From Typhlomys cinereus (lineage: Eukaryota > Chordata > Mammalia > Rodentia > Platacanthomyidae): a DNA stretch of 64,000 bases. Under the pieces are notes generated by a model, which saw only the letters and a program-made list of their open reading frames with translations, was not told the DNA's origin and ran no database searches. This document shows, piece after piece, positions 5,793 to 56,961 of this stretch (positions within the stretch are counted from its first letter, which is position 1; every line of letters begins with the position of its first letter). Where the stretch lies: positions 248,001 to 312,000 of the forward strand of contig JALPQD010000825.1 in assembly GCA_023101885.1 (NCBI GenBank). The letters are read 5' to 3'. Both the position numbers and the translations under genes were made by a program.

Positions 5793-5887
5793 GAGGATGC
5801 TGGGCTGTCACTCTCCCTCTGAGCCCCGCCCCCAACCCTCACTGCAGGATGCTGGGCTGTCACTCTCCCTCGGAGCCCCGCCCCCGG
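5793..5887 (-). repeat. Two tandem copies of an ID-SINE-head unit
   Basis: Two copies of a roughly 50-base unit with the core ATGCTGGGCTGTCACTCTCC and GAGCCCCGCCCCC. The reverse complement reads GGGCGGGGCTCAGAGGGAGAGTGACAG (split here as GGGCGGGGCTCAG plus AGGGAGAGTGACAG), which resembles the A-box half of ID elements. The same unit recurs at 26240-26460 and 33868-34090. Confidence 0.75.
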
Positions 5888-23435: not shown

Positions 23436-26239
23436 ACTGCCAAACTCCAGTCTCATGCCTTGGGCTGCTTGGGGGGGCATGGGTCATCCCAGGACCCCTC
23501 AAAGCCTGGCACCCCAGCACCCCAAGCCTGGCCTTCCTGGGCCTGCCCAGACACAGGTGGCCTTGTTCCAGCTGGCCAGTGGGTCTGACCCAGGCTCAGG
23601 CCACAGAGAGAAGGTGGTGGGGCCAGGGTGGGGTCTGCGGCCCCAAGCACCGCCTCCCACCTGGGGTGGACCCCCAGGGCAGCTCAGCCTCAGAGTGGAC
23701 AGAATGCTCCGTTCTGGGGTCACAGAGATCTGGGGGAGGGGCGCAGATGTGCCCCAGGGAACCAGATTGAATTAGTTTTGGTCCTGCTCAGCCCTGGGGC
23801 TGCTCCCGCCATCTGGCCAGACCCTCAGCCCCAGATGGGAGACCAAACTGGGCTGGGTCAGGCCTGGCGGCCACAGGCTACAAAAAAGGTTAGCCAGAGC
23901 CAGGGCACAGGATGACGTTCACCCTCACACCCAGCCCTCCTGGGTTAGATAAACACCCAGCCTAGCAGGCCCCCTTGAGTCAAGAGATAGTGCCAAGAGC
24001 CCCCTCCAGACTTCTTCCTAGCAACCTCCCCTCGCCATCCACACCCCACAGGGCCTCTAGTCTTCTGTGTGCTGTGCCGCTCTGGGCAAGCCTCCGCTTT
24101 GAGCTGTGACCATCTGGGGTTAGGGGACCCCGAGGAGCCTCCTGGGCCTCAGACACTTGGCATGAGGCCAAAGACCCGAAGGAGGAAGACAGCAGCTTCC
24201 GGGCGATTCTGCATACCTCTTCAGAAAAGATCAAAAAATGAACCAGGTTCAGGGGTCACCGTGACCTTGGCCCTGCTGGAAATGTGACAAGAGTGAGTGA
24301 TAAGGGAAGCAGGGATCTTGTGTGCACACACACACGTGTCCCAGCTAAAAGATCCCACGAAGCTGCAGAAGGAAACCCCCATCTCAACAAAATAAAAATA
24401 AGATGGCAAGATCATTACCATGAATAAAAAAAGGTCAGGCAGCCTAGGCAAGACAGGCAGAGGGACTTCCAGGCCAATCCACAGACTCGTGAAATGGTGA
24501 CTTGTCACCCCATAATGTCCCTAGGATGTCCCGTCTCCCCTCACCCCAAGTCTGTGGTGACAGGTGTACTTTTTACATGGGTTCCGGGGATTCAAATTCA
24601 GGTCTTTAGGCTAGAGCTTCTCCAGGGTCTTTTCTGAGACGGAGTATCCACAGCCCAGGCTGGTCTTCCACTCCCCATGCACCCAAGACTTGATCTTCCC
24701 ACCTCCACCCCCTCCCAATGCTGGGGTGACACATTTGTGCCACCAGGTGGGACAATAATTCTCCAGAGGACGAGGTCACGAGGAACGTGACCTCCAGAAT
24801 GTCACACACATAAAGCATTCTGAGATGATTTTGTTATTTTTAATCTGTCATTCAGCCCCTTCATGGGGGGGCCTTTCGGACCCTGTGGCCACGCTAGCCA
24901 GGTCGACGGCTGCTTGGAAACCCAAGAAAGGGTGTGTGTGGCTGGGGCCAGGTGCGGTGAAACCCAGTTCCCACGACTTTAATATTTTAAGAGGTGAAAC
25001 TTAATATTTAATGTTTGCAAATTTAGTATCTTTCCAGAAGTCAAAGAGAGGTAGAATCAGAAGGGGGCAGAGATTTAGCAGGGACACCACGGTCATCTGG
25101 GACACTGGGTCCCTGCCCCCCCTTCCCTGCTGTCCCACCTGGATCCCACCCTTCCAGCTCCCCAGTGAGTGCTGAAGATGTGGAAGGACACATGGTCCTG
25201 GGATGCCCCAGGACACCGTCCCACAGCAGTTTCTAGAAGGTTCTGAAGGTAGACAAGATCTAAGGGTGCCTGAGCCAGCCTGCCACTTGCTCCCCCCTCC
25301 CCCCCACTCAACTGCCTGGTCTGAGAAGAGCTTTGGCTGGTGCCTACGGCAGCTGAGGCACAAAGATGGAGAGCAACCGACCCGGGATCACAGCCCCCCT
25401 TTCCCTGCAGCTCCCATCGCCCCTAGCTGTGGCATGGAGACAGAATGAGGTTCACATCTGACGGGGGTGGGGGGTGGGGGAGTAGGGGGCAAAGGTCCTG
25501 GACTCTGGCCCCAGCACTGTGGAATCTGGGTGTGTGGCCTGTCACCCCAGCACTGGAGAGGTGGAGGCGGAAGGGTCAGAAGCTCAGGGTCAGTCTGGCT
25601 ACAGGGAAGGAAAGAAAGGGAGGGAGGGAGGAAAGAGGGGAGACAGGGGGGACAGGAACAGAAGGGTCCAGTCTTCTTTCTCACAGCCCAGTCCCTGCCT
25701 GTCCGGGGCAGCCAAAAGGTGGCCTCAGGGAACCCCAAGAAGCACCAGGGGAGCCACGCAGACCGGGATCCTCTGCCACTGGAGCTGGTGGGAGATGTTT
25801 CTGGAGGGGTGGACAGGAGTGGGAGAGGGGCGGCGCCTGAAGCTGGGGATCCCCTCAGAAAGACAGAGCTGAGCCAAGGCACCCCAGGGTACCCAGTCCC
25901 ACAACTCAGCTGGGACCCTTCTTCCCTCCCCGACTCCCTGTCTACACTGGTCAGTCTGAAAGCTTCCAGAACACAGGATGGGGGATCTTGGTCTCACACA
26001 ATAAATGACCTGAGCCCCTCCCACCTGAATCTTCTCAGGGTGTCTGTTCAGGGTCCTGGTCAGTAGCCCCAGGTCCCTCCACTTGATCACCCTCCTCGGG
26101 TGGACCTGACCAACAGGACCCATGACTATCCCAGGTGCAAAGGTCCTATGGTCACCAAGCAAAAGACAAGAGCGGGGCTCAAGGATGAACGTAGATGATC
26201 TGGGGTGACGAGGTAGGGACACCAAACCTAACCCAAGAC

Positions 26240-26460
26240 AGGGAGGGCTGGGGGCGGGGCTCAGAGGGAGAGTGACAGCCCAGCATCCTCATGACTGGGG
26301 CAGGGCTTGGCGAGAGAGTGACAGCAGCATTCTCAGGGAGGGCTGGGGGCAGGGGTCAGAGGGAGTGACAGCCCGGAGTCCTCAGGGAGGGCTGGGGACG
26401 GGGCTCCGAGGGAGAGTGACAGCCTGGCGTCCTCAGGGAGGGCTGGGGCGGGTTTCCCCA
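26240..26460 (+). repeat. Tandem array of ID-SINE-head units, about four to five copies
   Basis: Units of roughly 40-55 bases built on GGGCTGGGGGCGGGGCTCAG then AGGGAGAGTGACAGCCCAGC and ATCCTCAGGGAG. The wording parallels the A-box half of ID elements (GGCTCAGTGGTAGAGTG...GCCTAGCAT). The second unit is the most altered. Confidence 0.8.
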
Positions 26461-28175: not shown

Positions 28176-29089
28176 TCTCTGCCCAGAGTTATCACAGCCC
28201 TAGAGGGTGAGAGAGGGGGGACCGCCCGCCTGGGGTCCGGCGGGTGTGGCTAGCTGTGACGGCAGTGTTGGGGACCGCCGAGGGGGCGTTGCCCCCTCAC
28301 CCCAGCCTGAAAGGGAACCGCCCACCGCTCTGCTGCGTCCCCCTGGGACATGGTTTCTGGGCTTCTGGCCAACGCGACAGGCTGGGCACGGAGCCTGTTT
28401 GAGTCACAGGTGGCAGCTCGGGCCGCGCCGAAGCGGCCAGAGGACATTGAGGGCGGGGGACCGGGCGGCGCCCCGCACCCGGGCCTGGATGGCTCACCCC
28501 TCGCGGGGACACATACAACTGCAGGCCTCCAGCATCCACTTTGCGACAGTGAGGACGGAACCAGGTCCAGAGGTCATCGCCGAGGTCTCCGCACTACATG
28601 CGGTGAATGCCCCGCCCACGGTACCTGGGGGCCTCCTCTGGCCCTCTATCCTCTCTCCTCTCCCACAGCAAGAGTCCCTTAAGCAGGGCGGCTCCGAGGC
28701 TGGGCAAGGATTCTGCCCTAACTCCTTCCCCCACACACAAAGGGCGCCCAGGTTCCTCGCTCTGAGCCAGCAGCCAGGCAGAGTGGGGCCCCCTCTTGTC
28801 TTGGGGTCCCTGCGCCCCTGTTCTCTATGGACTGGGAGTACCGTTAGGAAGAGAAACTGAGTCAGGGAGAGTGGGATTGAGGACTTGATGGGGCCCAGGG
28901 TCCCTGGGGAGATGGGAGGCGGAGGTCGGGTTGGCGGGATCCCCAAGGCAGTGGGGAGCACTTGGGAATGGGCAGAGCTGGTCTGGCCTAGTACAGGTCA
29001 GCAGGCCGCAGAGCAGGGGGCGGCTTTGGGAAGCTTCCACCTGGTGGTCAGTCACCCTTCGGGGAGCCCCCCACAGCCCTCCTCATGCC

Positions 29090-32300: not shown

Positions 32301-33867
32301 CCTGGTTCTCTGGTTCCTGTGTCCACCTGTCCAGGGACGGGGCTGGGGTGACTTGATCCCACCCCTCCCAGGCCATGGGGGGAGCTGAGCGCTTGCCTTT
32401 CCCAGCACTGTGGCCCCATTTGCTTTCTCCCGGAAGTACCTCCAAACCAGGGGTCAATTCATTTCTTTGCTTTTCTTTCCTGTGTCTTCAGACCTGGAAG
32501 CCACATGGCGTGGGATGCTGTGGTGGGAAATGTCCAGGACAGGAAGTGGATCAGAGGGTGTCGGGGTGCTAAGGAGAGGGTGGGTGACTGCTCATGGGGC
32601 TTCCTTCTGAGGTGGCAGAATGTTCTAGAAGCAATAGTCACTTATGTCTGTGAACACACTAAAGGCACGAGGTGAACGGGTGGTGTCACAGCCTTTAGCT
32701 CAGGGCGGTTGCCAGGCAGGGGCTGGGAGGGCTGGACAGGAGTCTTTGGGCAGGGTGGGTGGGTCACCCCAGAACTCTCAGTGCCAGGCTGCCTGGCTCT
32801 CCATGCACTGTCCTTTGGGTCTAGCCTCAGACACAGCTCTCGGTGGCTAGCGATCAGCTTAATTGACCCCGGCAAAGCCCTGGCATGGGCTGGGACAGAA
32901 GGTTCCAGAATGGAACCCCAACTCCACATCAGAGCTGGTGAAAGGCAGGTTCCCAAGGTGGGGTGCACAGCTGCGGAGGGACAGACCCGCAGATAGCTGG
33001 GAGGGTCTCTCGATGGATCCCCCCAGGCTGGCTGTATGTCCAGACAGCTGCGTGTTCCCCCCCATACACCGCGCAGAGGGGATGAGTGGGGCGGGTCTGT
33101 GGGAGGGGTTGGGGTTGACAGATCTGGGTCACCCCTGGAGTGACCCCTGCCGGGCAGCCTCAGGAGAGGCTCCGACCCGCGTGGCGGGAGTAATTATAGC
33201 CACAGCGCTCCCGGGCACACGACAGGGATTTTTCTCCCGTGCTCCGGCAGGGACAGCCAGAGGGGCGCGGGTTCTATCGGGGTCACACAGCAAGGGACCG
33301 CCCGAGTTTTTCAGAAGCTGTGAGCCGGCCACTCCCGGCCTGTCAGGACTAGACAGCGCCCATGGCCTCTCGTGGCGTGGACCAGAAGCCACTCAGAGGA
33401 CCTTTTGTGCAGCTCATCTGCAGGGATTCAGAGGTTGAAGGCCAGCCTGAGCTTTGGGAGCCCCTGTTTCTAAGAATATACCCGGGCCGGCAAGACGGCT
33501 CTGCAAGACAAGAGGCTTGCAGCCAGGCTTGGTGACCTGAGTTCCATTCCTGGAACAGGGTGGTTGGTACCGGGAAGAATCAAGGAGCTGGGGGTGATAG
33601 GTAGTCAAAGTGCTTAGGGGGCAGCATGAGGTCCCTGGAGCCCACAGAGAGGGCAGAGAGGGCGATGTGTGTGTCTCACCCCAGAGCTGGGGGGAGACAG
33701 GGAGGGGGAGACAGAAGAATCTCGGGGACTCGTGTCAGTCAACTGATGGGGGTTTAGGGGAGAGGAAGACACCGAGGTTGACCTCTGGCCTCCACAACGC
33801 CGTGAACCGGTGAAAACACACACCAGAGAAAGAGAGGAGGAGAGAGGGAAGATAGGAAAGTGGTAGG

Positions 33868-34090
33868 CCACGCCCCCAGCCCTCCCCGAGGGCGCTGGGC
33901 TGTCACTCTCCTTCTGAGCCCTGCCCCCAGCCCACACTGCAGAATGCTGGGCTGTCACTTTCCTCTGAGCCCCGCCTCCAGCCCTCACTGGAGGATGCTG
34001 GGCTGTCACTCTCCCTCTGAGCCCCGCCCCCAGCCCTCACTGAGGCTGCGGGGCTATCAGTCTCCCTCTGAGCCCTGCCCCTGGCCCCAG
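33868..34090 (-). repeat. Tandem array of ID-SINE-head units, four copies
   Basis: Four units of about 55 bases sharing ATGCTGGGCTGTCACTCTCC and CTCTGAGCCCCGCCCCCAG. They are the reverse complement of the array at 26240-26460 and match the pair at 5793-5887. Each unit carries a GC-box-like CCCCGCCCCC or CCCTGCCCCC. Confidence 0.82.
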
Positions 34091-35336: not shown

Positions 35337-35477
35337 AGATCCCCAAGGGGGTCCGGTGGTTTGAATCTCCCCGTGGGTGTGGCTCATTGTGCCACAGTGA
35401 GCGGGGTTGGGGTGGGGATGGGGGGCGTGATGCTGTGCTGATGTCCCCCACGTGCCCGCCCAGGTGCCCCCAGCATC

Positions 35478-37250
35478 ATGACCTGTCTGCTGCGCGTGCT
35501 CAGCCTGCACCTTCTGCTGCTGCCCACTGCCACGCCCCCGGCAGGGGGCTGCCCGTCGCGCTGCGAGTGCTCGGCGCCCACCCGCGCCGTAGCCTGCAGC
35601 CGGCGCCGCCTAACCTCCGTCCCCGACGGCATCCCGGCCGAGACGCGCCTGCTGGAGCTGAGCCGCAACCGCATCCGCTGCCTGAACCCGGGTGACCTGG
35701 CCTCGCTGCCCGCCCTGGAGGAGCTGGACCTCAGCCACAACGTCATCGCGCATGTGGAGCCCGGCGCCTTTGCCGACCTGCCGCGCCTGCATGTGCTTAG
35801 TCTCCGCGGCAACCAGCTGAAGCTCATCCCGCCCGGCGTCTTCACGCGCCTGGACAACCTGACCCTGCTGGACCTGAGCGACAACAAGCTGGTCATCCTC
35901 CTGGACTACACGTTTCAGGACCTGCGCGGCCTGCGGCGGCTGGATGTAGGCAACAACAACCTGGTGTTCATCTCGCGCAGGGCCTTCGCAGGGCTGCTGG
36001 CCCTGGACGAGCTGACCCTGGAGCGCTGCAACCTCACCTCGCTGTCGGCCGAGTCCCTGGGTCACCTGCGCGGCCTGGGCGCCCTGCGCCTGCGCCACCT
36101 GGCCATTGCCGCCCTGGAGGATCGAAACTTCCAGAAGCTCCCGGGACTCCTGCACCTGGAGATTGACCACTGGCCGCTGCTGGAGGAGGTGGCGGCTGGC
36201 AGCCTGCAGGGCCTCAACCTGACATCGCTGTCTGTCACGCACACCAACATCACTGCCGTGCCGGCTGCCGCACTTCGACACCAGACGCACCTGACCAGCC
36301 TCAATCTGTCCCACAACCCTATCAGCACGGTGCCCCGCGGGTCCTTCCGAGACCTGGTGCGGCTGCGGGAGCTGCACCTGGCGGGGGCGCTGCTGGCCGT
36401 GGTGGAACCCCAGGCATTCCTGGGGCTGCGGCAGATCCGGCTGCTCAACGTGTCCGACAACCTGCTGTCCACTCTGGAGGAGGGCACCTTCCACTCCGTC
36501 AACACGCTGGAGACCCTGCGCGTGGATGGAAACCCACTGGCCTGTGACTGTCGCCTGCTGTGGATCGTGCAGAGGCGCAAGACCCTCAACTTCGACGGGC
36601 GCCTGCCGGCCTGTGCCACGCCCACCGAGGTGCGCGGCGACGCCCTCCGGAACCTGCCCGACTCTGTCCTCTTCGAATACTTCGTGTGTCGCAAGCCCAA
36701 GATCCGGGAGCGCAGGCTGCAGCAGATGGCTGCCACCGCGGGGGATAACGTGCGCTTCCTGTGCCGCGCCGAAGGCGAGCCTGCGCCCACCGTATCCTGG
36801 GTGACGCCCCAGCACCACACGGTGACAGCCAGCAGCGAGGGCCGGGCGCGCGTGCTGCCCACCGGCACCCTGCTCATCTCGGATGCTCAGCCCCAGGACA
36901 CGGGCACCTACACGTGCGTGGCCAGCAATGCCGGGGGCAATGACACCTATTTCGCCACGTTGACCGTGCGGCCGGCCGCCAACCGGACCCAGGGCGAGGG
37001 TCACAACGAGACGCTGGTGGGTGTCCGCTTCCCACTGGATCTGACCACCATCCTGGTGTCCACTGCTATGGGCTGCATCACTTTCCTGGGCGTGGTCCTC
37101 TTCTGCTTCCTCCTGCTGTTCGTGTGGAGCCGGGGCCGCGGCCAGCACAAGAACCACTTCTCCGTGGAATATTCCTTCCGCAAGGTGGACGGCCCTGTGG
37201 CTGCGGCCAGCCAGGGGGGGGCGCGCAAGTTCAACATGAAAATGATCTGA
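35478..37250 (+). CDS. LINGO3: LINGO3, LRR and Ig domain-containing Nogo-receptor-interacting protein 3
   Basis: Single-exon reading frame of 590 codons (human about 592) for a type I membrane protein of the neuronal LINGO family. A signal peptide (about residues 1-23) is followed by the LRR N-cap with CPSRCEC, about a dozen leucine-rich repeats (LEELDLSHNVIAHVEPGAF type), and the C-cap with NPLACDCRLLWIVQRRK. An I-set Ig domain follows (CRAEGEPAP...DTGTYTCVASNAGGNDTYF), then a membrane helix around residues 518-550 (STAMGCITFLGVVLFCF). A short cytosolic tail ends KFNMKMI. The start is fixed by the signal peptide and an acceptor at 35463, so 14 bases of 5' UTR lie in this exon. Position beside LSM7 matches human. 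Confidence 0.98.
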   Translation: MTCLLRVLSLHLLLLPTATPPAGGCPSRCECSAPTRAVACSRRRLTSVPDGIPAETRLLELSRNRIRCLNPGDLASLPALEELDLSHNVIAHVEPGAFADLPRLHVLSLRGNQLKLIPPGVFTRLDNLTLLDLSDNKLVILLDYTFQDLRGLRRLDVGNNNLVFISRRAFAGLLALDELTLERCNLTSLSAESLGHLRGLGALRLRHLAIAALEDRNFQKLPGLLHLEIDHWPLLEEVAAGSLQGLNLTSLSVTHTNITAVPAAALRHQTHLTSLNLSHNPISTVPRGSFRDLVRLRELHLAGALLAVVEPQAFLGLRQIRLLNVSDNLLSTLEEGTFHSVNTLETLRVDGNPLACDCRLLWIVQRRKTLNFDGRLPACATPTEVRGDALRNLPDSVLFEYFVCRKPKIRERRLQQMAATAGDNVRFLCRAEGEPAPTVSWVTPQHHTVTASSEGRARVLPTGTLLISDAQPQDTGTYTCVASNAGGNDTYFATLTVRPAANRTQGEGHNETLVGVRFPLDLTTILVSTAMGCITFLGVVLFCFLLLFVWSRGRGQHKNHFSVEYSFRKVDGPVAAASQGGARKFNMKMI

Positions 37251-40600: not shown

Positions 40601-42889
40601 CGCAGTCAGGACAGGGCACAGTATGGGGGGCAGCACACTGCCCCCCCTCCTTGGCCTCTCTCTCCAGAGTGTAGGCCATGAAGCAAGCGTCGGGTCTCTT
40701 GGGGATGAGGGGATGCCCCGGTCTCACAATCTCAAAGCCCAGAAAGCTGAAGGTCCGGAGCAGGGCGGCTGTGGGGACAGGGGTGTCAATCAGCATGTGG
40801 GAGCCCTGCCTGCCTGTGTGGCCCCTCCACAGTGCACTCACCTCTGTCCTCGCGGTTCTTGTGGAAGCAGATGAAGACGTGGTCAGCCTGCAAGCGCTCC
40901 TCGGCGAACTCTAGCAGAGCTGCAAAACTGAGCAGGGAAAGGGGGTTCACGGGAGAAAACCTGGGGTCCCAGGGCACCCGGGCACAGGTAGAAGCACTCA
41001 CCTGTCCTTGCTGCCCTCGGGCAGGGGTCCACCCGGGAGCTCAATGTAGAGGCCGCTGCCACTCCACACCGCCCGCCAGGTGACCTGCTTGGCCTCCGAG
41101 AGCAGCGACTGGATGGTGAGGACCCTGGTCTTGTCACTGGACGTGGGCTCCTCTGTCACAATCAGCCGCTCATCCTGCAGAGCCCACGGTGAGAACCCCC
41201 GCACCCCCTGCACCCCACCCCCACTCCCCACCCCCGTGCCAGGCACTCACGGCGTAGAGCAGGCTGGCTGCAAGATCGTGATCCCGCTGGCTGTCCCCTC
41301 GCCCACCTGGGATCCTCAGGGGTGGGTGAGGGGCATCAGGAGCACCACCGAGGCCCCGGACCCGGGTGACCACAGCAGTGCAGGGCGGTCCTGGAGCTGT
41401 GGGACAGTGCTAGGTCAGGGACCCTTGGGCCCAGGCCTCCCCCCAACCCGCCCTCCTCCAGCTAAGCCTCGGGGCACCGCCTCCTGCCGGCCTCACCAGG
41501 GCGATTGCATCACCCCATCTGCTGCGCTCCGCCAGGCTGTGGCCAGCAGCTGCATGTCCCGACAATCCTGAGTGAGCCCCACTGACCCCCTTCAAGATCC
41601 TCCTCAAGCTTGCTCACCAGGATGGTGTGCCCCCAAACTGCCCTCTACAGAGTGCTAACCCCCAACCCGCAACTGCCAAATGACCTGAGCCCCCTGCACC
41701 CCCCAAAGACTCTCCTCCAAACCCAAACACTACCCTGCACCCCCAACCGGCCTACCCCAATCCAAATCTTCACCCACCACTCATTATCAAGTCTTGCTTC
41801 CTTTGATCTACTACTCAACCACTCCCCAAAAAATCTGACCAAGACCCTCCCCAATCCCATCCAAGTCCAATTTGAACCATGCTGACCATACCACAAATCC
41901 TCCAACCAGGCACCCCCCAAATGCAACAGGATCCTCCCCATGACACCCCAAACCTGAGCCACAAACCCACAACACCCATAAACCAACAGGAGCCTCCACA
42001 ACACACGGAAGCCTAGCTGATAGCCTCTACTTGAGAATCACCACCCCACTACCCTCCAAATCCAAGTCTTCAAGTTACAACCCCCAAAATTGCCCCCAGC
42101 CCCTCCCCCACAACAACCCAAACAAAACCTAAACCTCTTGCCACTGGGCAGCAAATCTCCCACCGTGCCATTTCTAAATACACCCTCCAAATCCACAGAC
42201 TGAACCCCAAAAACCCAAGTTCTCAACTCCATCCTAAGGCCCTCCTCTGCTACACCTCCAAGTCTGAGTCCAGAAGCCATAACCCCAAATGAACCCTAAA
42301 TCCATTCTGAGTGCATTCCAAGTCTAAGAGCCCCAAAATGAATCTCAAATCCCTGAACGCTGGATCCCAGGTCCAATAGTCATAAATACTCCAAGTCTTC
42401 ATTGCTACATCCCAAATCCAAGTCCAGAAACGGGTGATCCTTCTCCGAATGAACCCTTCCCACTGTACCCCAAAACCCCAGCGAGTCCCGAACCTGCGGC
42501 TTCCCTAAAGGAAGCCTAAATCGCCCCCTGAAGGACTCCAAGCCCCCCAAGCAAGCCGTAGCCCTTCTTTCCCACCACACCCTGGGGCCCAGTCCCTCTA
42601 GTGGGCTCTACCCCCTCCCCCGCCGCACCCTAAACCCCGGCGGCCCCGCCCCGCGCGATTGTGGTGGCCACAAAGGGGCGGACCGAGCCCCCGCAGGTGC
42701 GGGCGGCGGCGCTTCTGGAAGCTTCGGCGGCGGCGGCGCTGACCTCTCGCCGCTGCGGCCGCCGCGACTGCGCAGGCTGAGGAGCGGCATGGTGCGGCTG
42801 GTGGGCGGCGCGGCGCTGGGTTTATCCCCCTCTTTCTCCCGGGCGAAGCAGTGGCTGTTGAGGATCCGCTGCAGGGAGGATTTCACCAT
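40596..42889 (-). CDS. OAZ1: OAZ1, ornithine decarboxylase antizyme 1 (+1 frameshift gene)
   Basis: Binds ornithine decarboxylase and sends it to the proteasome without ubiquitin, and blocks polyamine uptake. Coding exons: 42744-42889, 41251-41396, 41002-41174, 40842-40927, 40596-40768. The first frame stops at TGA 41336-41338 after 68 codons (WCS stop). A polyamine-stimulated +1 shift at TCC_TGA enters the main frame ([12 protein letters not shown]). The second in-frame Met (RTMPLL, codon 34) is the known alternative start. The main frame shows [32 protein letters not shown] and [15 protein letters not shown]. With the shift the product is 240 residues (human 228); the extra twelve come from a new C-terminus ([10 protein letters not shown]...PCPDCE) replacing the acidic ERESSGEEEE-type end. 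The start follows a TATA box at 42981. Confidence 0.97.
41336..41341 (-). promoter_or_regulatory. OAZ1: OAZ1 programmed +1 ribosomal frameshift site
   Basis: Minus-strand sequence TGG TGC TCC TGA TGC. At the TCC_TGA junction the ribosome skips one base when polyamines are high, reading GAT next. The UCC-UGA-U context is that of vertebrate antizymes. A 3' stimulatory pseudoknot is expected within about 50 bases downstream (toward 41280), but I did not fold it. Confidence 0.95.
41640..42560 (-). repeat. Strand-asymmetric C/A-rich (G/T-rich on OAZ1 sense) tract, decayed short repeat
   Basis: For about 0.9 kb the plus strand is very poor in G and rich in CCCAAA, CCAAGTCC and AACCCTAAA words, looking like a decayed minisatellite. 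On the transcribed strand of OAZ1 it reads as GGGGTTTGG/GGACTTGG-type sequence. It fills OAZ1 intron 1 just downstream of the CpG island. Confidence 0.75.
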
Positions 42890-42980
42890 CCGGCCGCTAG
42901 GGTCCGAGACCAGGAAACCTCCGCTGCGCGCCGCTGCCGCCGCTCGCCCTTCGCAAAATGGCGCCGCCGCCGCCGCCCGC

Positions 42981-42987
42981 TTTTATA
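42981..42987 (-). promoter_or_regulatory. OAZ1: OAZ1 TATA box
   Basis: TTTTATA on the plus strand, TATAAAA on the minus strand, about 92-98 bases upstream of the OAZ1 ATG. Confidence 0.85.
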
Positions 42988-43306
42988 GGCGCTGCCGCGC
43001 CGGGCCACGCCCCCCGCACCGCGCAGGCGCAGAAGCGAGCGAAGGCGGAGCTGGCGAGCCGCCGGAAGGACCAGGCCGCGCCCCGCCGCCGCCGCCGTCG
43101 CCTCCTGATTGGCGTGAGCGAGAAGCAGCCGGAAGTGCTCTCGCGGACGTGTGGTCGGCGCTCCGAGGAGCGCGGACGTCGCTCGGGGGCGGGGCCTCGG
43201 GGCGGGCTGCCCGTTACGCTTGGCCCCGCCCCGCCCCGCCCCGCCCCGGTCCGCGCAGACAGGCCTGGGCGCGATGGCGCCGCGCTCTGCCGAGTGAACG
43301 GGGCCG

Positions 43307-43314
43307 TGACGTCA
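43307..43314. promoter_or_regulatory. CRE palindrome TGACGTCA
   Basis: A perfect CREB/ATF full site at the outer edge of the OAZ1 CpG island, about 320 bases upstream of the TATA box. Binding is inferred from the motif alone. Confidence 0.55.
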
Positions 43315-44971
43315 CTCCACGTTGCGCGTGTCGAGAAATGCGGGATTTCCGGGCGTCGGTCCCCACGGCACAGTTGTTCTTTCTGACGACCCTGTAATAT
43401 TCCGCAGTTTTAGGGCGCTCCGCTTCAGGACAACGCAGCAAACGACACACGATTAAAAAAAAAAAATAGCAACGTGGGGGGCGAGATCGCGGCGCGCTTG
43501 GCCCGCGGAACAAGTGCTTCCGAGTGTGTGCGGGTGTCGCGCGTGCTGCGGGTCCCTGTGGAAACCCAGGGGTGACCGGGAAGCACCCTGCATTGCTTCC
43601 ACCTCCTTATTGCTTTGCTCTGGGCTTTGCGAGGCTCCGCCTTCCAGGGCCGGAAATGCCGGCCGCCCGCATTTCTACCTGGAGCTTTTCCACGGGATCT
43701 GGGACCCAAATTCATGACTTTTCTACTGATGAGGCAGAGTCTTAACCCCCTAACGGTGGCCGCTGCGGCAGGACCGTGGCTGTGAGTTACAAGCCAGAAC
43801 AAACTCCAGAAAATGCTCTTATCTCAAAACAAAAAAACATTCAAACGTCAACGAAGATTGGATTTAGCAAGCAAGTAAATGGAGGTTTGTAGGTGATGTT
43901 TCGCAGGCTGGATCCCAAGTCCCTAGGTAGCCCAGGCTGGCCCTGATCCAACCCACAGCTCATCAGCGGCTGCATCCGGAGTTTGAGTCTAGCCTGTGTT
44001 CCCTGGGACCTTAGGAAAGGCCCACTTTCTCTAGATATAAGGGACCCTCTGAACCAGAAGACACGAGGGAGACAGGATGGAAAGAAAATGGTCATCGAAG
44101 GGGCTGGTATTAGCTGATGCAAAAGAAGAGGGTGTAAATGCCATACATGAGGTCCTCAGATGTGGCGCGTGTGCATGTGCATGTCTGTGTCAGAGGCCAC
44201 TTGCATGTCTCCGGAGACCCAAGAAAAGTATTTTGTAAAAAAGGAAGTGTGGGCTGTGGGATTCTTGTTCTTGTTCTCTTTTAAACATTTTTGGGAAGCT
44301 GGCTTTGCCCTTCCGGCCTTCAAAGACAGAGCCTGGGAAAGTCCAGAGCAAAGCAAAAAGGAGGTGGAAGCCATCCATGTGATTCCCAATGTCACCTTTG
44401 GGCCGCCACAAATTAAAAACTGAGAAGGGAAGCATAGAAACATAGCCAGGCCTGTATTTGCCTACCACAGCTGTTGGCTGTTGCTGGCCTCTGACACCTC
44501 TGGCTTTTATCAGGGGCAGGAGGCATGGTGGGTGGGGGATTGGTAGCAGCTCCAAAGTTCTGGATGTTTCTGTCTTGGTCCTCTAGGCCCTCAGTGAGGC
44601 TGAGCTGAGACCCCTCCTCTCCTTGGCCCCCTCTTTTCTTCTTGGTATTTCTGAATTAGTGTCTCAAGTGTAGCCCAAGCTGACCTCAAATTTACAGCAA
44701 TCCTCCTGTCTCTGGGCTGGAGCCCTGGGTGGGGGTTCTTGAAGCTGTTCAGCACTCATTGCACTGTGATTGGTGGGCACAGCACTCACCCCACAACCAC
44801 ATGCAGCACCCCAGTCACCCCAGCACAGGGGTGGGGGAAGTGGGGGGGTGGGGGCCGGAGAAGGAGAAGCCCAGGGGCAGCCTGGGGTGGGGGCCGGAGA
44901 AGGAGAAGCCCAGGGGCAGCCTGGGCTATGGGACATCATGACCAAAAAAAGCATCAGCTAAGGAAGTTGTT

Positions 44972-45870: not shown

Positions 45871-46719
45871 ATTTCAATAAACAGATGAGGGGCAGGCTGT
45901 GTTTGCCTAGAAATGAGGCGCTTCCTGCTCCTGCCCCACATCCCTCTGGTACCCCAGCTTTTTGTTTTCTGCAGCTGTTGTCTGTCCTTTGAAGGGGTCA
46001 CAGTTGGCTTTGAACTTCTGCCAAAACTTCTACCTCATACTTCTTGGTTTCTGCGATCAACATACGCACTGAGGTTTTCTCTCTCTCCATCCATCATTTC
46101 TTTCTTTTCTTTCTTCTGATGTCTGCCGAAGCTGACTTCTGAACTCCTGATCCTCCTGCCTCTACTTCTTGAACACTGAGGTAACCCTGTTTCAAAAACA
46201 ATAAAAGTCAAAGGACCCCCCAAAGGCTTGAGACCAAGCCCTGTTAGCAGAATGACTCCTGTGCCAGCCAAGACCATCTATTATAGATGCATGTGTCAGC
46301 CTGACCACAGAGTGCTGAGCCTTTAGGCACACCTATGAAGAATTTAATGGATGCAAGTCTGTGTGGAATTATTGATCAATGCGGGAAGTCCTGGCCCCCA
46401 CAGTGGATGGGATTATTCTCCGGGCAGGCTTGCTCAGGGTTACCGACTGTGAACAAATGTGCCCAGAACTCAGCCTCCCGTTGTCCTGTTGACACCCGTA
46501 GCCAACTGCCTCACGGGGTCTGAGGGTTTCAGCCCACTCTGGTGGATGTGACTTGGTGGGGCGGCCACGTCCACCAAGGTGGGAATGTGCTGCCAGGAAT
46601 GTTCACATTCTGGAGGACCAGGACATGGGGAGAGGGAGGAACCCCAGGCAGATGTGAGGCTTAATGCCCCATCCTGCAGTGATCAGCTTCCTCCACCCAG
46701 GCCCCCCCTATGTCTACCA

Positions 46720-47124
46720 GTGCCTCCTGCTGGCAGGTCAAAACAATAGCGCCCCGACATCGCCACCTGCTGGGTATTAGAGCAGAAGCAGAGTCTCAAT
46801 ACTGCCACCTACTGGGTGTTCAAAACTCAAATAGAACCTCAATAGCGCCACCTTCTGGGCATTTAAAGACAAACAGAGTCTCAATAGCGTCACCTGCTGG
46901 CTTTTAGACAGAATCTCAATAGCGCCACCTGCTGGGCATTTAAAGACAACAGTCTTGATAGCATCATCTGCTGGGCATTTAAACAAAGTCTCAATAGCAT
47001 CGCCTGCTGGGCATTTCAAGACAGTCTCAATAGCGCCACCTGCTGGGCACTCAAAACTCAAACAGGACCTCAGCAGCGCCACCTACAGGGCATTTAAACA
47101 AGTCTCATTAGCACCACCTGCTGG
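46720..47124 (-). repeat. Tandem array of eleven CTCF-like motifs
   Basis: An unusual minisatellite with unit length 35-43 bases. Each unit carries a 14-base word close to GCGCCACCTGCTGG, starting at 46720, 46760, 46802, 46845, 46887, 46922, 46961, 46997, 47033, 47076 and 47111. The reverse complement CCAGCAGGTGGCGC fits the CTCF core consensus CCASYAGRKGGCRS exactly in the units at 46802, 46922 and 47033; the others differ by one to three or so bases. All eleven point the same way (core motif on the minus strand). Linkers vary (GGCATTTAAA, AGTCTCAATA). Occupancy by CTCF is inferred from motif match only. Confidence 0.88.
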
Positions 47125-47475
47125 GTGCCTAAAACATGAGTTCCCCCCCCCTCCTCCCAGGGCTGGAGAGATTGCCCAGGGGTTAAGATTCTACCTCCCA
47201 AACAGAAGGTCCTGAGTTTGGATCGCAGGTCTCATGTAAAATTGCCAGATGGAAATGGCCACAGCCTGCACTTCAGTGAGAGGGTCCAGCTGGTCAGGAG
47301 CTGGTTCACAAAAACCCGGTGATCCGAGTCCAATCCCGTGTGTGTGTGTGTGTGTGTGTGTATCAGAGGACACTGTGTGTCCTTGTGGAGGACTAAGGTT
47401 GTCTTCAGGAATCATCCTGGATTGTTTCTACCTCCTTTCTGCTGAAGCTAAATTGGAAAAAAAAATATATATAAA

Positions 47476-47590
47476 GGTGTCTGGGATGTGACTCAGAGGG
47501 AGAATGACAGCCCAGCATCCTTTCGTGGGGCCCGGAGGTGTGGTTTAGAGCATGTAGGAGGTCTTGGGTTCAGTTCACAGCACTATAGAC
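47476..47590 (+). repeat. ID-like SINE, near complete
   Basis: Reads GTGACTCAGAGGGAGAATGA then CAGCCCAGCATCC, and ends AGGTCTTGGGTTCAGTTCAC plus AGCAC, giving both A-box and B-box halves of an ID element. Its left half is the same as the tandem units at 5793, 26240 and 33868, which ties those arrays to ID heads. Confidence 0.65.
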
Positions 47591-48542: not shown

Positions 48543-48818
48543 TGTGGCCCCAGGCAGGCTCCAGGCCTTTCTGGGCTCCTGTGGCCAGCAGGTGGAACTA
48601 CACTGAGGGGCACTGGGGGTCTTCAGTGTACTGGGCAGGGGGACAGGGATATAGGTGGGCCTGGGGGCAGAGAGGGCCTAGGTGTGTAAGGGAACCTAGT
48701 AAAGGGAGGGAGGGAGGAAGGAAGAGAGGGAGAAGAGGAGGGAGGGAGGGAGAGAGGCAGAGCAAGCCTGGTAATGTCTGCCCCCCCATCTTCCAGTCCA
48801 GGGGCTCCAGCTGTCTCC

Positions 48819-51468
48819 ATGTCAACCAGAGACTTGGATGATCTGGACGGTGGCCTGGGCAGCTGCCTGCCCAATGACAACTTCCTGCTGGAGGAGCCCA
48901 GCCCAAGCCAACGGCCCGAGCACAAGGCTCAAGGTACCCCGCTCTGCTTTAGAGCCTTGTGGCTCGGCTTCAGAGACCATAGTACTCTCTGCATTTGCAA
49001 ATTTGCTTTGTAGGTCTGCAGGAAGCCCCAGAAGAAACACGGGGGGGAGGGAGGTTCAGTCACACTGACCTGAGTTCGAATCTCTTCCTACCACAGAAGT
49101 CTTGTGTTTGTCTTTGAAATGGGAGTTACACCCCCCTTTCCCGTAGTATGGGGCTGGAGAGTAGGGTGGGGCTGGTGTTGGGGGACAGGCTGTCCCGCCT
49201 TGATTCTCCCTCCGTTCCACCCGCAGGAACACCTAGGCTGGCATACTCTAGCAGCTGGCCCTCTGTAAGTAGCTCCGGTCCCGGGAAGGTCCTTTCCTCT
49301 CCCTTTCTCTTCCTCCCCTTCCCGGGTAGCCCAGGCTGGCGTCAAACTCACTAGGTTCCCAGGTGACCCAGATGCTGTCTGCATGGCTGGGGTGACAGGT
49401 GCTTCAGCCACCATGCAAGCAGGGCAAGTGTTACACTTTGGACCCCATCCAGCCTCCCCCTCACTGGGTAGCCCAAGCTAGCCTCGGGCTACAGTTCCCA
49501 AGTCCTGGGATTGACAGGCACCAGCCGAAGCACCCTGGAGGGTGCTCTAAAGCTGGAAGCACCCCCCATGTCTCCTGAACAACCCCCCACCAGGGTTCTG
49601 AGAGAGTCGTCATTACGGACGGCAGACCCAGGATAACAGAGAAGGAGCAGGTGGTCAAAGGGGCCCCAGGACCCAGCAAGGAGTCAAAACCTGAAACTGC
49701 AAGTGCGTTTGCAACAGGACGGTGGGGGTGGGTGGCTGGGCTCAGGGAATAGGTTTGTGGGTCGGAGCACTGGGGGACAGCGTAAGTGGGTCTTCCCAGA
49801 CTGGGAGGCCATAGGTGTGGTGCTGCAGGTGGGTGGGAGCAGGGTGCAACCAGGGGTGCCTCTGCATTCCCTAGCTGCACACTGGACCCTGCAGGTCTGC
49901 GGATCGTCCCAGTGCACAAAAAGTCGCACCTGGCATCACCTCCAGGCCTGAGCCAGGACCTGTCCTAGAGGGACATGACCCTCAAGTGTGTGATACTGGC
50001 CACACTGGTGGCCCTCCTGGGCTCTGCGGTCCAGCTGTGTTGGGGTGAGCCTGGGGCTCCAGGGAAGGGAACCAGGAGTCCAAAGTCTGCCCCCCATCCC
50101 CCAACTCCCCATCTTCCCCACCCCCCCACTGGGAGGATGTTGGATGTTGGGAGTCCTCTCTTGGCCAGCATGCCCCAGTGATCCCCCTTGTCAGCCTCCC
50201 ATCTCCCACACAGCCCAGTTGAGAGGTGCGTAGCTACACCCAGTTTTTCAACAGGGTGGTGAGATTCAAACTCTGGTCCCTGGGATTGTGTAGCCATTGC
50301 CCCAGCCTGTTTGTTTTGGGGCACAGTGTCCTGGAACCCAGGCTGGCTTGGAACTTCCTATGTGGCTAAGGGGGATTTATTTTCCTCCCCCTCTCACTCC
50401 CTGGGGTTACAAGAGGGTACCACTGGCCCGGGTTAATTTTATTTTACTGTGAGCCAGAGCCGTGCTCTGTAGCCCAGGCTAGCCCCAGCTGGCCCCAACC
50501 GTTTTGCCCCAGTCCTCTGCTGGTGGAGTGTGTATGTGGAGGGATGTTCTCCCAGAGAAGGTCTCAACCTACACTGGACACCCCCAAGGACTCCTGACTC
50601 CCCACTTCCTCCTTCAGCTCTAGGAAACACAGCTATAGGACAAAGGGGGGGGGTCCCCTTGGAGAGCTCTGCCCTGCAGCCACTGGGAGAGGTGGAGCCC
50701 CCATGGTGGGAACTGTAAGGAGACAGAGAAGGGGGCCATGGGGTTGATTCCTCGGCTCGAACCTACTTTCCCGCGGGGTCCAGACGCTGTGATAGGAGAA
50801 ACAACTGTACCAGCAGCTGCCCCTCAGGGGTGGAAGCCCCCCAGCTCGCCGCCCAAGAAGCCGCAGGCGGCCCCAGTAAGTACCCCTTCCCAGAAAACGT
50901 GGCACGGTGGGAGGCTGGGAGGTCAGCTGGGTAGACGCGACTCCAGGATACACTCCTGTGTGTCGCTGTTCTGCAGTCTAAGCCCGCGGTCTCCAGGCCC
51001 TCATCAGGCCCCTCCGCACCCCAGGCGGGGCCCCCCACACCCGAGGCAGGGACGGAAGACAGGTTTGACGTTCCCCAGAGCCAGGAGGCTACGGAAAACG
51101 TCCAGGGGGAGTCTGGGGAAGCCAGCGGAGAAGTGGCGTCCGAAGAGCGCCCAGCGAGAGACCACCGAAGAGAGCCCAGGGAGAGACCATCGAAGGCGGC
51201 GAAGCAGGGGAAGGATGAGAGGCGGAGAGAGCGACCGCGGAAGGAGGAGAGGCTGCGGAAAGAGGAGAGGCCGTGGCTCTCCAGGGAGCCCGGGGAAGCT
51301 CTGCCCCGACGCTGGGAGGCACCGAAAGGAAGCCGCGGTCCGTGGGCGCGGGACCCCAGGAGCCCTGAGCCCAGGAAGGGGCCCACTTGGGTTTCCCCAG
51401 GATGCCGCCACCAAAGCAACCGGTCTCCTGGGAAACAGAAGCCCCGCGGGGGCAAGGGGCGGGACTGA
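48819..51468 (+). CDS. JSRP1: JSRP1 (JP-45), junctional sarcoplasmic reticulum protein 1, with in-frame stop
   Basis: Skeletal-muscle triad protein that links the Cav1.1 channel and calsequestrin in excitation-contraction coupling. Exons: 48819-48933, 49227-49264, 49594-49702, 49895-50044, 50784-50875, 50977-51468; phases agree and the sum is 331 codons plus stop, the same length as human as I recall it. Visible: an acidic N-terminus (DLDDLDGGLGSC), the membrane helix (KCVILATLVALLGSAVQLC), then a Lys/Arg/Glu-rich lumenal part with RKEERLRKEERP repeats ending GGKGRD. Codon 112 (49966-49968) is TAG in DLS-stop-RDMTLKC, where the family has Trp (human ELPWGDLSLNKC). The frame stays open on both sides and all splice sites look good. 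So this is either a very young nonsense allele or pseudogene, or a base error. Confidence 0.92.
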
Positions 51469-51700: not shown

Positions 51701-53891
51701 TCACCGGCAGCCGCACTCAGTGGCCACCATGTTGGGGACGTGGTGCGCACTAATGCGCTCCTCTGACAGTGTGATAAGGAGCTTGGCGGCGTAGGCGGTA
51801 GGCACGCAGCAGGGCGCACGCGCCAAGGGGGTCCCCCGCGCCTGCATCTTCAGCAGCAGCACCACGTGGTTCCCGTAGTGCGGGTTGCGGTCCGACTGCG
51901 GCCAGGCGCACGTGCCCTGGCAGTTGTTGGCGCGGTAGGTGTCGGGGATGAGCACGGAGCGCTCTGCGCGCAGATTCACGTTGAGCTCGCGCAGCGCGCA
52001 GGGCCCTTCGGCCGCGCCCCCCGCGCTGCGCTGCGGCCGGGACAGTGTCCCTGGAGCCCTGCTGCGCCGCTCGGCGCACAGCCCCTGCAACGCCTTCAGC
52101 AGCAGCAGGGCGCGCAGCGGGTCCCCGGGGCGGCCCAAATCCCCTGGGCACAGCGCCAGCAGGCGCGCCAGCAGCGGCAGCGCGGTGGGAGGCAGGGCCG
52201 GGAAACCCCGCAGCTCAGCGGCCGCCGCCCGCAGCTCCACGGCCACCCTGCGTGCCAGGCTCTCGGCCCAGGGCACCGACCCCGGGCCTGGAGGGGACGC
52301 TGAGGCCCCGGGGGCCCCCTTGGCTGGCTCCATCAGGAGCAGCAGCGGCTCCTCCCCATGGAGAAGGCGCTCCAGCGCCGCGGGGTCCGACAGGTTGACT
52401 AGACCTTGCGGGGAGCTGGCCAGGGCGCCAGGGTCCAGGGCCAGGCCCGCGCTCCAGTGCAGAGCGGGGGATCCCCGCAGCGTCCGCACCAAGTGCGTGA
52501 GCGTTCCCAGGAAGGGGTCCGTGCTGCGGGGCGGCTCCTCCTCAGGCCCCCTGAACACCCTGGAAGTAGAGCCCGCCAGAAGCTGTGAGCGCCTGAGACC
52601 CTCGCCGCTGCCCCCCTTCCGGGCCTCCTGAGCCTACCTGGCTGTTGGGAAGGGCATGGTGTCCAGCTGGCCCTGTGCAGGCTGCGGCCCAGGTCGGGGT
52701 GGGGGCAGCAGGAGCAGGGTTGGGGTCATCCGCGTGAAGCAGCGGGGCTCAGAGCCGAACAGCAGGGCCTGCAGCTGAGGGGTGCTCGGGGGGCCTGCTG
52801 GGAGCCCCGAGTCAGCCGCTGCGAGAGCAGCCACGGGCCGCGCCCCCCCTCTTGTCCTTCCCCTGGAGTCACCTACCGTCCCTGCGGGCCTGAAGGGTGA
52901 GCGTCAGCCCGGGCCGACTCCAGGCCTCGGCTGGGCGGTCCACGGCTAGCACCAGATAGCGGGTGTCTCTAGTGGGGCACAGGCTCTGCAGAGATGAGGG
53001 CGAAGGTGGCCAAGGTACATGCATCGGCCCCAGCCCCCTCCCGGGTCTGTTACGACTTACATGCGTCATTCCTCCCCTGCACCTGCCCTCCCCCCCAGCC
53101 CCACTCTTTGTAGTGCTCCCCAGCACGCACCTGCCCATCTGGGAGCCCAGCCCCGGTAACGGTGAGCTCGGGGCCAGGCCCAGGGTACAGCACCAGCAGC
53201 GCCTGACCCCCGGAACTGGCTCCTTCCCACGGGGGCTCATGGAACCTCAGCGAGATGGCCGGCTCCCACGTCACTGCACAGACAGGACAAAGGGGACGCC
53301 TGAGAGCCCGAGCCCGGCCCCAAAACACCCTCTGCTGGGAAAGCCCTCTGCAGGCAGAAACTTCCAGAGCCCTCACGGGGTCCGCAGCCCTGAGGGGACC
53401 CTTTCTGTGGCCAGGAAGAAGGGGTCCCAGGGAAGGCTTCCAGTGATGAGGGACGGGCCTCCTGGGAGACCCTTGGAGGTGGGGCCTACGGCTAGGTTGG
53501 ACCCCAGAGCTCTCTGCCCCCACCTACCTTCAGCCAGGTGCAGAGCAAGCAGCTGCTGCCCACCAGACTCCCTCAGCCAGGCCCCCAGATGCCGCAGGGC
53601 CCCCAGAACTGCCTTCGAGTTGGAACTGCAGACCCCGAAGGTGGGCAAGTCTTGCGGTCCCCAGTGGGAGCTCTGCACTGCCCCCAGGAAGTCATGCTCA
53701 TAGCTGCCCAGGCCCCCTATTACCCTCAGGGGGGCTCTGCTCATGTTGCCCCCCCTTGGTGCCACCAGACACAGGGGCTCGCCCCCATCCTTGAGGAAGA
53801 TGAGCCCCCCATGGCCAGCGGCCGGCTCTCCCGCGGAGGCTGCAGCCCCCACGGTCACTAGCAGCAGCAGCTGAGTGGGCCGCCCCTGCAT
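51701..53891 (-). CDS. AMH: AMH, anti-Mullerian hormone
   Basis: Secreted TGF-beta family hormone that causes regression of the Mullerian ducts in males and restrains follicle recruitment in ovary. Exons: 53528-53891, 53131-53273, 52877-52985, 52638-52797, 51701-52559; phases agree and give 544 residues (human 560). A signal peptide starts [16 protein letters not shown]. The pro-region has [33 protein letters not shown] and [21 protein letters not shown] processing site RPQR/SAGG precedes a 108-residue C-terminal domain with the seven-cysteine knot ([23 protein letters not shown]). The exon 4 acceptor could be three bases later (52794) without changing the frame. The gene lies directly downstream of SF3A2 and its 3' end faces JSRP1. 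Confidence 0.98.
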
Positions 53892-54270: not shown

Positions 54271-56961
54271 TCAGTTGCCAGGGGGAGGGGGAGGAATGTT
54301 CCCAGGGCCCTCGGAAGGGAGAGGGGGTCTCAGCATCGGGGGCATAGGAGCTGGGTGCACCCCAGGATTTGGGGGATGAACCCCTGGAGGCTGGGGGTGG
54401 ACCACGGGAGCAGCAGGATGAACCCCAGGAGGAGGCTGAGGGTGCACCCCTGGGGCCTGGGGGTGAATGCCGGGGGCAGCGGGGTGAACCCCTGGGGCCT
54501 GGGGGTGGACTGCAGGAGTCGGTGGGTGCACTCCTGGGGCCTGGGGGTGCACCCCTGCTGATGGGGGAGGATGGACGCCCGGGGCTGGTGGGTGGACACC
54601 CGGGGCAGGGGGGTGGACCCCAGATGTTGGTGGGTGGACCACTGGTGTTGGTGGGTGTACCCCAGGAGCTGGAGGGTGCACCCCAGGAGCTGGGGGGTGC
54701 ACCACTGGGGCTGGGGGGTGTACCCCAGGAGCTGGCGGGGGCATCTGGGGAGGTGCAGGAGGTCCTGAGGGAGCAGGCCCCGTGGGGGGCATCGGGGGCA
54801 ATGGCAGGCCTCCGGGTGGGGGTGGGGGCAAGGCATCAGGCAGCGGAGGCCGCTGGGGAAGGCCGTTCATCAGGGGGGGTGGGGGCCGCTTCACTCCTGG
54901 GGGTCCAGCAGGGAGGGCAGGTGGTGCTGGGGGCTTCTCCATCTTGAAATGGAACTGGAGAAAAAACTGCAGAGGAGGGTGTGTCAGGGGACTTGTGGGG
55001 GCCTCGTGGGGGACACTGAGGCTGCCCCGCCCAGGACGCCCCTGGCCACACCTGCTTGGTCTCTCGGTTCCAGTGGGTCCAGAACTTGCCCTCAGCCTTG
55101 TCGATCTCCCTGCTGGGAACCTGGGGAGGGGGGAGGAAGAGGTGCTGAGACCCGGGCTGCAGGAAGGCACTGCCTGAGGTCTCCCTGGCCGCCCACTACC
55201 TTGAAGGCGATGGTCTCATAGGGCTCGGCGGCCATCAGCAGGTACTGCCAGCGCCGGTCGGGCGGCTCGATCCTCTGTTCATAGGCCGACATGAAGCGGT
55301 GCCGGGGCATGATGCCCTCAGCAATCTCAGGGTAGTCGATCTGCAGGGCAGGGACTATGGCAGCACTGCCCAAGCCTGCCTGCCCACCTGTTCCCCCTCA
55401 CCAGGAACAGGAGGCTCCGCCCACCTGCCCCCCTCACCTGGAACAGGAGGCTCTGCTGGCCCATCTCAGTGTCCCTCTGCTTGGTCACTGCAAGGAAAAG
55501 GGATGTGGGGGGGGGTCCTCCCTGGTGCTGGGGGTGGCCTGCCACCCACTGAGCAGCACAGAGAAGGGGGCTTGGGATTCATGAATGTGTGGACCAAGCT
55601 GCTCAGGGGGTGCATGGGTGGTGCTTCTGTCCCTGCAGCAGGGTCCCAATATGGTGCTAGGACCCTGGCGAGGGTGACTGGTCCTCAGGCCGGCAGCCCT
55701 CCTCTCCCCTCCCAGCCCGAGTCACCAAGGAACATGGTTCCCTGCCCGCCCTGCCCCCAGGACCAGTCTTCTGACCAGGTCCCCTCAGACCTCTGCTGAG
55801 GGGGCGCCCCTCTCCAGTCCTTCCTTCTCTAGGTCAGCACCTAGGAAGTGCTGGGGCTTATCAGCCACCTGTAGGCCTCTGGGGATGGTGCTGGGCAGTG
55901 CGGAGGCCACAGGACAGAGAGCTGCGTGTAGCTGTTCACCCCGCAGCTGTGCGCACACACCCACCTTTGTAGCCAGGACGGCCGATCTTCACGAACTTCT
56001 TGACTTCCACCTTGACCTTTTCGGGTGCTGGCTGTGCGGGAGCTTCCTTGGCCTCCTTGGCGGCTCGCCGGGCCCTGTGGGCAACAGATGCTGAGGTCCT
56101 GGTCCCCCCCCCCCAGCTCCCAGGCCACAGCCCGGTGCTAGAGTCCCACAGCAGGGTGAGGGAAATTCAGGGGTTTGGGGGTCCCAAAGCAGCAGGAGCA
56201 GAGACGGCAAAAGGAAAAGCACCCCACACAATGTTGGGGAGCCCCCCAGAGCTCCACAGATTTTGTTCTCTTCAGAGTCACAGGGTTCAATGCAGGGCAG
56301 CCCACAACCCCTAAACAAAGAAAGGCCTGGGGCTCCCGGGCACTCACAGGTTGGTCTGATGCTTCTTGCCCTGAGTGTGGGCCAGGTAGCTCCCCTGCAA
56401 AAAGCACACATGCACTCAGGGCTGGTCACTCAGGCTGAGCAGCTGGCCGTCCCTGCCCAGGCCTCAGCTGTGCACAGGAGGGAGGGGAGCAGGGTGGTCC
56501 TGATGAGACCATCCCCCCAACCCCAGAGCAAGGTGGAGCACATGAACCCGGCTATCCTGGGAACAGCTGTGACACATACATCCACCCCTGGCTGGGACCA
56601 ACATGCCCCAAGGGAGATGCCTGGGGACATGCAGCGCGGGCAGGTACCTCATTGTTGTGCAGGGTCAGGCACAGCTTGCACTCATAGGATCCCAGGTGGT
56701 TTTTCATGAAGTATGGATCCTGAGAGGGAACAATCCCACAGGTCAGCCCAGAAAGAGCCCCGTGGTCAGGGCGCCCAATGGGGCTGCAGGACTCTGCAGG
56801 CATGGGAAGGATCTCCCTTCAGCTAGTCAGCCCACCTTGTTGATGTCAATGGTCTCTAGGGCCAGCTGCCGCAGACGCTCTCGCCGGTCACGGTTGCTCT
56901 CAGAGGAGGAGGCCACGCCCCCGCTCCCCGTCTTGCCGCCGGGGCGATGCTGGAAGTCCAT
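54271..56961 (-). CDS. SF3A2: SF3A2 (SAP62/SF3a66), splicing factor 3A subunit 2
   Basis: U2 snRNP component needed for prespliceosome assembly. Coding exons: 56836-56961, 56648-56719, 56348-56394, 55965-56074, 55438-55487, 55200-55340, 55052-55120, 54271-54966; phases agree and give 436 residues (human 464). The N-terminus [15 protein letters not shown], the C2H2 zinc finger (C56, C59, H72, H78: CKLC...HTQGKKH) and the SF3A2 core ([40 protein letters not shown]) are all clear. The C-terminal half is proline-rich with about eighteen GVHPPAP-type heptads, fewer than human, which explains the shorter length. Exon 1 is non-coding: a donor at about 58463 in the CpG island (CCTTCCCG then GTGAGC) fits its end. 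Confidence 0.98.

Follow-up and report, generated by a model that had tools for sequence, protein, structure and literature searches.

The window, meaning the whole stretch of DNA analysed here, comprises 64,000 nucleotides of the Typhlomys cinereus contig JALPQD010000825.1 (C825:248001-312000); genome-wide searches covered 2.68 Gb in 1235 contigs. Genes were located by protein and domain matches, and a minisatellite of eleven CTCF-motif units lies between two of them:

21710-23333, plus strand: LSM7 (protein matches)
35442-37247, plus strand: gene with LRR and Ig domains (domain matches), which we take to be LINGO3
40653..42889, minus strand: OAZ1 coding matches (tblastn with the human protein; the ODC_AZ match, in one exon, is below the Pfam cut-off)
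46718..47127, minus strand, pointing to lower coordinates: minisatellite, eleven CTCF-motif units (repeat calls, matrix scores, alignment)
48582..48600, plus strand: lone strong CTCF motif in opposite orientation, 21.6 bits (matrix), roughly 220 bases ahead of the putative start codon of JSRP1
48819..50869, plus strand: JSRP1, at least this far (start codon assigned by reading, at 48819; the Pfam JSRP match at about 50774-50869 is weak and below the curated cut-off)
51704..53705, minus strand: AMH (bounded by the TGF_beta domain and the first AMH_N match)
54943-56961, minus strand: SF3A2 (protein matches)

The array is located between divergent genes and upstream of both, 3.8 kb from the start of OAZ1 and 1.7 kb from that of JSRP1. 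A preliminary description of this DNA had placed it between OAZ1 and JSRP1/AMH, which the tblastn and Pfam matches bear out. OAZ1 is transcribed away from the array and has a CpG-rich region at about 42500-43500. The OAZ1-JSRP1 block is presumably autosomal in human and mouse. A search of the open literature revealed no paper joining JSRP1, OAZ1 and CTCF and none on CTCF at the locus; Jsrp1, Oaz1 and Amh occur together in a paper on copy number and stroke.

Tandem repeats are frequent in the window, where Tandem Repeats Finder reported 52 rows, some of them overlapping. Three short tandem arrays, at 5788-5885, 26239-26452 and 33867-34081, are built from a unit of about 50 bases (GGGAGAGTGACAGCCCAGCATCCT...) that may belong to an ID-like SINE; a single copy of this unit is present near 47492-47521. 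Another minisatellite (54349-54743), with a period of 21, 42 or 63 bases, lies just past the 54943 end of the SF3A2 matches and may represent a 3' region of SF3A2 that is rich in repeats. The CTCF-motif array itself is directly followed by a SINE that, we presume, resembles B2/B3 and has matches to its first bases at many places of the genome.

Motif content and layout of the array

The array units share a word near GCGCCACCTGCTGG, with starts at 46720, 46760, 46802, 46845, 46887, 46922, 46961, 46997, 47033, 47076 and 47111, corresponding to unit-to-unit spacings of 40, 42, 43, 42, 35, 39, 36, 36, 43 and 35 bases. Word search and alignment confirm the previously described eleven same-strand words at 35-43-base spacing. 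The core CCASYAGRKGGCRS (IUPAC) is perfect in three units and has one mismatch in six, two in one and three in one, in agreement with the earlier count of three perfect cores and one to three mismatches in most others. Tandem Repeats Finder called the region in three rows (46761-47100, 46838-47125 and 46838-47046) with periods of 36 and 75.

Both strands of the window were scored with a reconstruction of the 19-position CTCF matrix JASPAR MA0139.1. The resemblance to CTCF, until then noticed for the word, extends over all 19 positions of this matrix in a single orientation. The preliminary description had proposed a weight-matrix check, and all units scored above threshold with a uniform background (p < 1e-4 in 11 of 11, p < 1e-5 in ten, p < 1e-6 in eight). 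With window composition as background, p < 1e-4 was obtained for ten units, the exception being 46995. The motifs, all on the minus strand, are as follows:

46718..46736: 19.4 bits; edge unit, one flank non-repeat (matrix, alignment)
46758..46776: 17.2 bits (matrix)
46800..46818: 18.2 bits, IUPAC core perfect (matrix, word search)
46843..46861: 19.7 bits (matrix)
46885..46903: 17.4 bits (matrix)
46920..46938: 21.7 bits, IUPAC core perfect (matrix, word search)
46959..46977: weaker motif, 13.7 bits (matrix)
46995..47013: weakest motif, 9.7 bits, p 5.6e-5 with uniform background and 1.1e-4 with window composition (matrix)
47031..47049: 21.7 bits, IUPAC core perfect (matrix, word search)
47074..47092: 17.7 bits (matrix)
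47109..47127: 16.3 bits (matrix)

The best two units reach p 2.2e-8, while units 46959 and 46995 are decayed by their matrix scores. In the ranking with uniform background, the six top-scoring sites of the window are five array units and the site at 48582-48600; rank seven is a minus-strand site at 29032-29050 (17.9 bits), and ranks eight to eleven are again array units. The site at 48582-48600 is the only one outside the array of equal strength, and it is on the opposite strand. An opposite-facing partner near JSRP1 had been noticed before at about 48586; its word is present at 48585-48598, one base off.

When the window was shuffled 100 times with its dinucleotides preserved, the maximum of same-strand sites per 420 bases was three at p < 1e-4 (in 8 of the 100) and two at p < 1e-5 (in 4 of the 100), compared with ten observed at each threshold. 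Chance clustering of CTCF motifs is ruled out by these shuffles. The region holds several full-length motifs close together, in excess of composition-matched chance, as in a CTCF site cluster. As a sequence element, the array is a real CTCF-motif minisatellite, beyond chance.

The scan was widened to 264 kb of the 513-kb contig, consisting of the window and 200 kb of flanks. It contains 17 sites with p < 1e-6, eight of which are within the array. The others, in contig coordinates, are 172350 (plus), 211684 (minus), 277032 (minus), 296582 (plus; window 48582), 347396 (minus), 364177 (plus), 390476 (plus), 405662 (plus) and 409202 (minus). Nowhere else in the 264 kb did three or more sites of one strand (p < 1e-5) fall within 450 bases. 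Exact motifs number four there, three of them array units, against no reversed controls, counts too small to use.

Divergence of the copies

Mean pairwise column identity reaches 0.805 for the 14 bases of the core, compared with 0.573 in the other columns (permutation p 0.0004, 11 units). This corroborates the earlier impression that the linkers drift more than the word, although the difference is weaker without the edge unit 46720 (0.813 versus 0.673, p 0.034; p 0.074 when the whole 19-base motif is taken). Motif positions 4, 5, 7, 9, 10, 13 and 18 are invariant in all eleven units. Column conservation tracks CTCF information content, with a Spearman correlation of 0.61 (permutation p 0.004, 11 units) that becomes 0.56 (p 0.007, 10 units) when 46720 is left out.

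The placement of substitutions was compared with a random null in which the numbers of transitions and transversions were kept and CpG sites were weighted tenfold. The 31 substitutions cost 46.1 bits in total, against 91.4 +/- 14.7 at random placement (p 0.0007), and for the 17 distinct changes the two figures are 27.5 and 58.6 +/- 10.6 (p 0.0013); without 46720 the values are p 0.0125 for all and 0.0021 for distinct substitutions. As copies within one array are related, these permutation p-values are too optimistic. The sparing of CTCF-critical bases is evidence, from copies that are not independent, that CTCF binding may have been retained during copy divergence.

With 46720 set aside, the remaining ten units are 53 to 96% identical to one another, so that most copies are not fresh. 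The alignment further reveals two linker types, one of which is common to 46845 and 47076 (83% identity), indicating growth of the array by block duplication. Five of the 11 units have lost the CpG that the consensus has in its core (GGCGC), and the 19-mer is CpG-free in four. Some of these changes resemble CpG decay and thereby hint at methylation in the germline, if only part of the time. The array contains nine CpG and has a CpG observed/expected ratio of 0.37; the flanks are lower (0.23 and 0.13).

CTCF-motif repeats elsewhere in the genome

When the array was used as a query against its own genome (E up to 10), only the array itself was recovered (one candidate), in a search that may skip very common words. 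With a query extending into the SINE, 39 of the 40 matches that were scored, among 257 candidates, fell on query bases 504-551, which are the SINE. A transposon origin, for which we had considered what we presume to be a rodent B2-like SINE, predicts dispersed copies; it was rejected as no other array copy turned up in the genome, very common words possibly having been skipped.

A strict pattern of exact tandem motif pairs gave at least 41 matches in the genome, against at least 3 for the reversed control, raw counts that are not adjusted for single-motif frequency. The 41 matches listed are spread over 12 contigs. The array of the window is missing from this list because no two adjacent units are both perfect. 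More than two copies in a row are found on C312 and C873 (units of 30/36 bases, alike), C531 (38), C506 (41), C802 (37-55), and C279 and C98 (17). The linkers of the arrays on other contigs differ, by eye, from those of the window array. Locus L041 on C312 has 12 plus-strand sites with p < 1e-5, and 15.4 copies of a 36-base unit.

Several of these loci deserve separate description. C312:26244-26628 and C873:80054-80432 are very similar, with eleven perfect CTCF cores each in the pair list; they could represent a single locus, duplicated segmentally or present as two haplotypes. Locus L033 on C62 carries a 44-45-base unit with the CTCF core CCAGCAGAGGGCGC in two short arrays, at L033:814-963 and 1444-1575, and an additional strong CTCF site at L033:1911. 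At C279:981551-981666 and C98:5206502-5206549 the CTCF consensus recurs every 17 bases, in contrast to the 35-43 bases of the window array. Since this period is shorter than the 19-base motif, adjacent copies there should not be bound at once.

With a loose three-unit CTCF-like pattern, at least 369 matches were obtained against at least 641 for the reversed control, overlapping matches being counted. The loose pattern was rarer than its control: finding loose CTCF-like words within repeats is nothing unusual, and a general enrichment of CTCF-like repeats was not supported with this pattern. The preliminary description implied more singularity than the array has: minisatellites with CTCF units occur elsewhere in the genome as well. 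We consider it possible, but rather unlikely, that CTCF minisatellites are made again and again in this genome out of unrelated sequences, in several cases with units of about one footprint (30-45 bases), and that selection preserves the CTCF bases; at the present locus this would provide a tunable, copy-number-dependent boundary between housekeeping OAZ1 and tissue-restricted JSRP1/AMH.

Interpretation and comparison with known systems

A unit of 35-43 bases is about the size of one CTCF footprint, so that several CTCF molecules could sit side by side, facing one way. The array would have been born in place, by repeated tandem duplication of such a unit with its CTCF site. With motifs on the minus strand, the convergent rule predicts that it should stop cohesin coming from the OAZ1/LINGO3 side, while the plus-strand site at 48582 would stop cohesin arriving from the JSRP1/AMH side. 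The strong sites are divergent and 1.5 kb apart, and together they would make a divergent boundary of the form '<<<<<<<<<<< >' between OAZ1 and JSRP1/AMH. From this orientation, loops are predicted leftward from the array and rightward from 48582. Candidate convergent partners are the plus site 172350 for the array and the minus sites 347396 and 409202 for 48582 (contig coordinates); such sites are common, and partners possibly within reach are weak evidence. An enrichment of CTCF clusters with divergent orientation has been described for the domain boundaries of human cells (PMC7422557). We favour, with a probability of about 0.6, the reading of the array as a locally born CTCF minisatellite that serves as a left-facing loop anchor and forms part of a divergent boundary between OAZ1 and JSRP1/AMH; binding, cohesin stalling and insulation are what we infer from the motifs. 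Counting against it are the two decayed units, the loss of the core CpG in five units, the weaker contrast between core and linkers once the edge unit is left out, the loose pattern being rarer than its control, and arrays elsewhere in the genome that arise without proof of use.

The same features might belong to a neutral minisatellite, in which a stretch with a single CTCF-like or CTCF-bound site was expanded by slippage or unequal crossing-over, the extra copies adding little and having no boundary role. Such an origin would fit the frequency of CTCF-like words in repeats found with the loose pattern and the many other tandem repeats of the window, and the two linker types with the 75-base period would be ordinary block duplication. 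Species-specific loss of CTCF binding at boundaries was, in addition, reported to have no detectable effect on expression (PMC6945661). We nevertheless regard this explanation as rather unlikely, although possible: substitutions avoid the CTCF-critical positions, the strict pair pattern exceeds its reversed control (in raw counts without adjustment for single-motif frequency), and a separate, opposite-facing site of equal strength is present 1.5 kb off.

Two further explanations keep a function for the array and change the protein or its role. bHLH, SNAI and ZEB proteins prefer E-boxes, and CAGGTG occurs in 5 of the 11 unit cores (CANNTG in six) at a distance of 1.7 kb from the presumed start codon of the muscle gene JSRP1, which would allow for an enhancer or silencer of this gene. 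CANNTG is, however, broken in five units, whereas all eleven have a CTCF motif at p < 1e-4 (uniform background), and the invariant columns are both inside and outside the E-box, tracking CTCF information content. With CAGGTG kept in only five units, the E-box array was rejected as the main reading and we consider it very improbable. The array could also be a BORIS/CTCF cluster site that acts chiefly as a testis-specific alternative promoter rather than as a boundary. BORIS was found to turn clustered CTCF sites into transcription starts (PMC10832218), and simple tandem repeats are the main sites co-bound by CTCF and BORIS (PMC5007689); the array, on the other hand, is no CpG island at its observed/expected ratio of 0.37, even if this is above that of the flanks. 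A chiefly promoter-like role appears improbable to us. The boundary reading leaves room for a contribution of the paralogue: in male germ cells the stacked CTCF might be mixed with BORIS/CTCFL, and in testis the array may additionally serve as a cluster site of CTCF and BORIS.

If bound, the array would offer a compact natural test of how the number of CTCF sites and their stacking in the same direction relate to boundary strength. It combines eleven graded sites in 410 bases with an opposite site 1.5 kb off and divergent genes on the flanks. Differences in copy number between individuals or species, if existing, would be natural dose variants.

Repeats with CTCF sites have been described in several systems. 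In human K562 cells, 171 repeats strongly bound by both CTCF and BORIS were validated by ChIP (PMC5007689). Like the present array, these are mostly uncharacterised simple tandem repeats in which a CTCF site per unit leads to a cluster site; the sites there are shorter and staggered (CTS'), whereas each unit here, in another species, has a match to the full 19-base motif. Adjacent motifs have been termed 2xCTS (two or more CTCF motifs), with double DNase footprints at same-strand pairs (PMC4562119), and the array, like the CTCF/BORIS repeats, also has more than one CTCF motif within a short stretch. The pair of the mouse Tsp50 promoter is 33 bp apart, close to the 35-43 bases of the array. The array differs in having eleven motifs, with 16-24 bases between the 19-mers, tighter than the 30-40-bp linker class of that study (PMC4562119).

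Larger repeats with CTCF binding are also known. DXZ4/Dxz4 is a tandem repeat with conserved CTCF binding that is implicated in chromosome folding (PMC3491370); it is X-linked and made of kilobase units, the mouse array being about 35 kb, in contrast to 35-43-base units in 410 bases here, recognized by their motifs. The tRNA-gene VNTR of human 1q23.3 is likewise a repeat with a CTCF site and was proposed as a boundary, with human-mouse conservation described only in the tRNA genes and a 24-bp CTCF site; its units are 7.3 kb long and thus unlike those of a minisatellite (PMC4041453). The clustered boundaries of Pcdh and HOXD share with the OAZ1-JSRP1 array several CTCF sites of defined orientation, but they are mixed-orientation clusters and not copies of one short repeat unit (PMC10703910). 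Boundary clusters of CTCF sites are also reported to gain species-specific sites (PMC6945661). CTCF-site repeats are thus already known, and the OAZ1-JSRP1 array looks like a further example.
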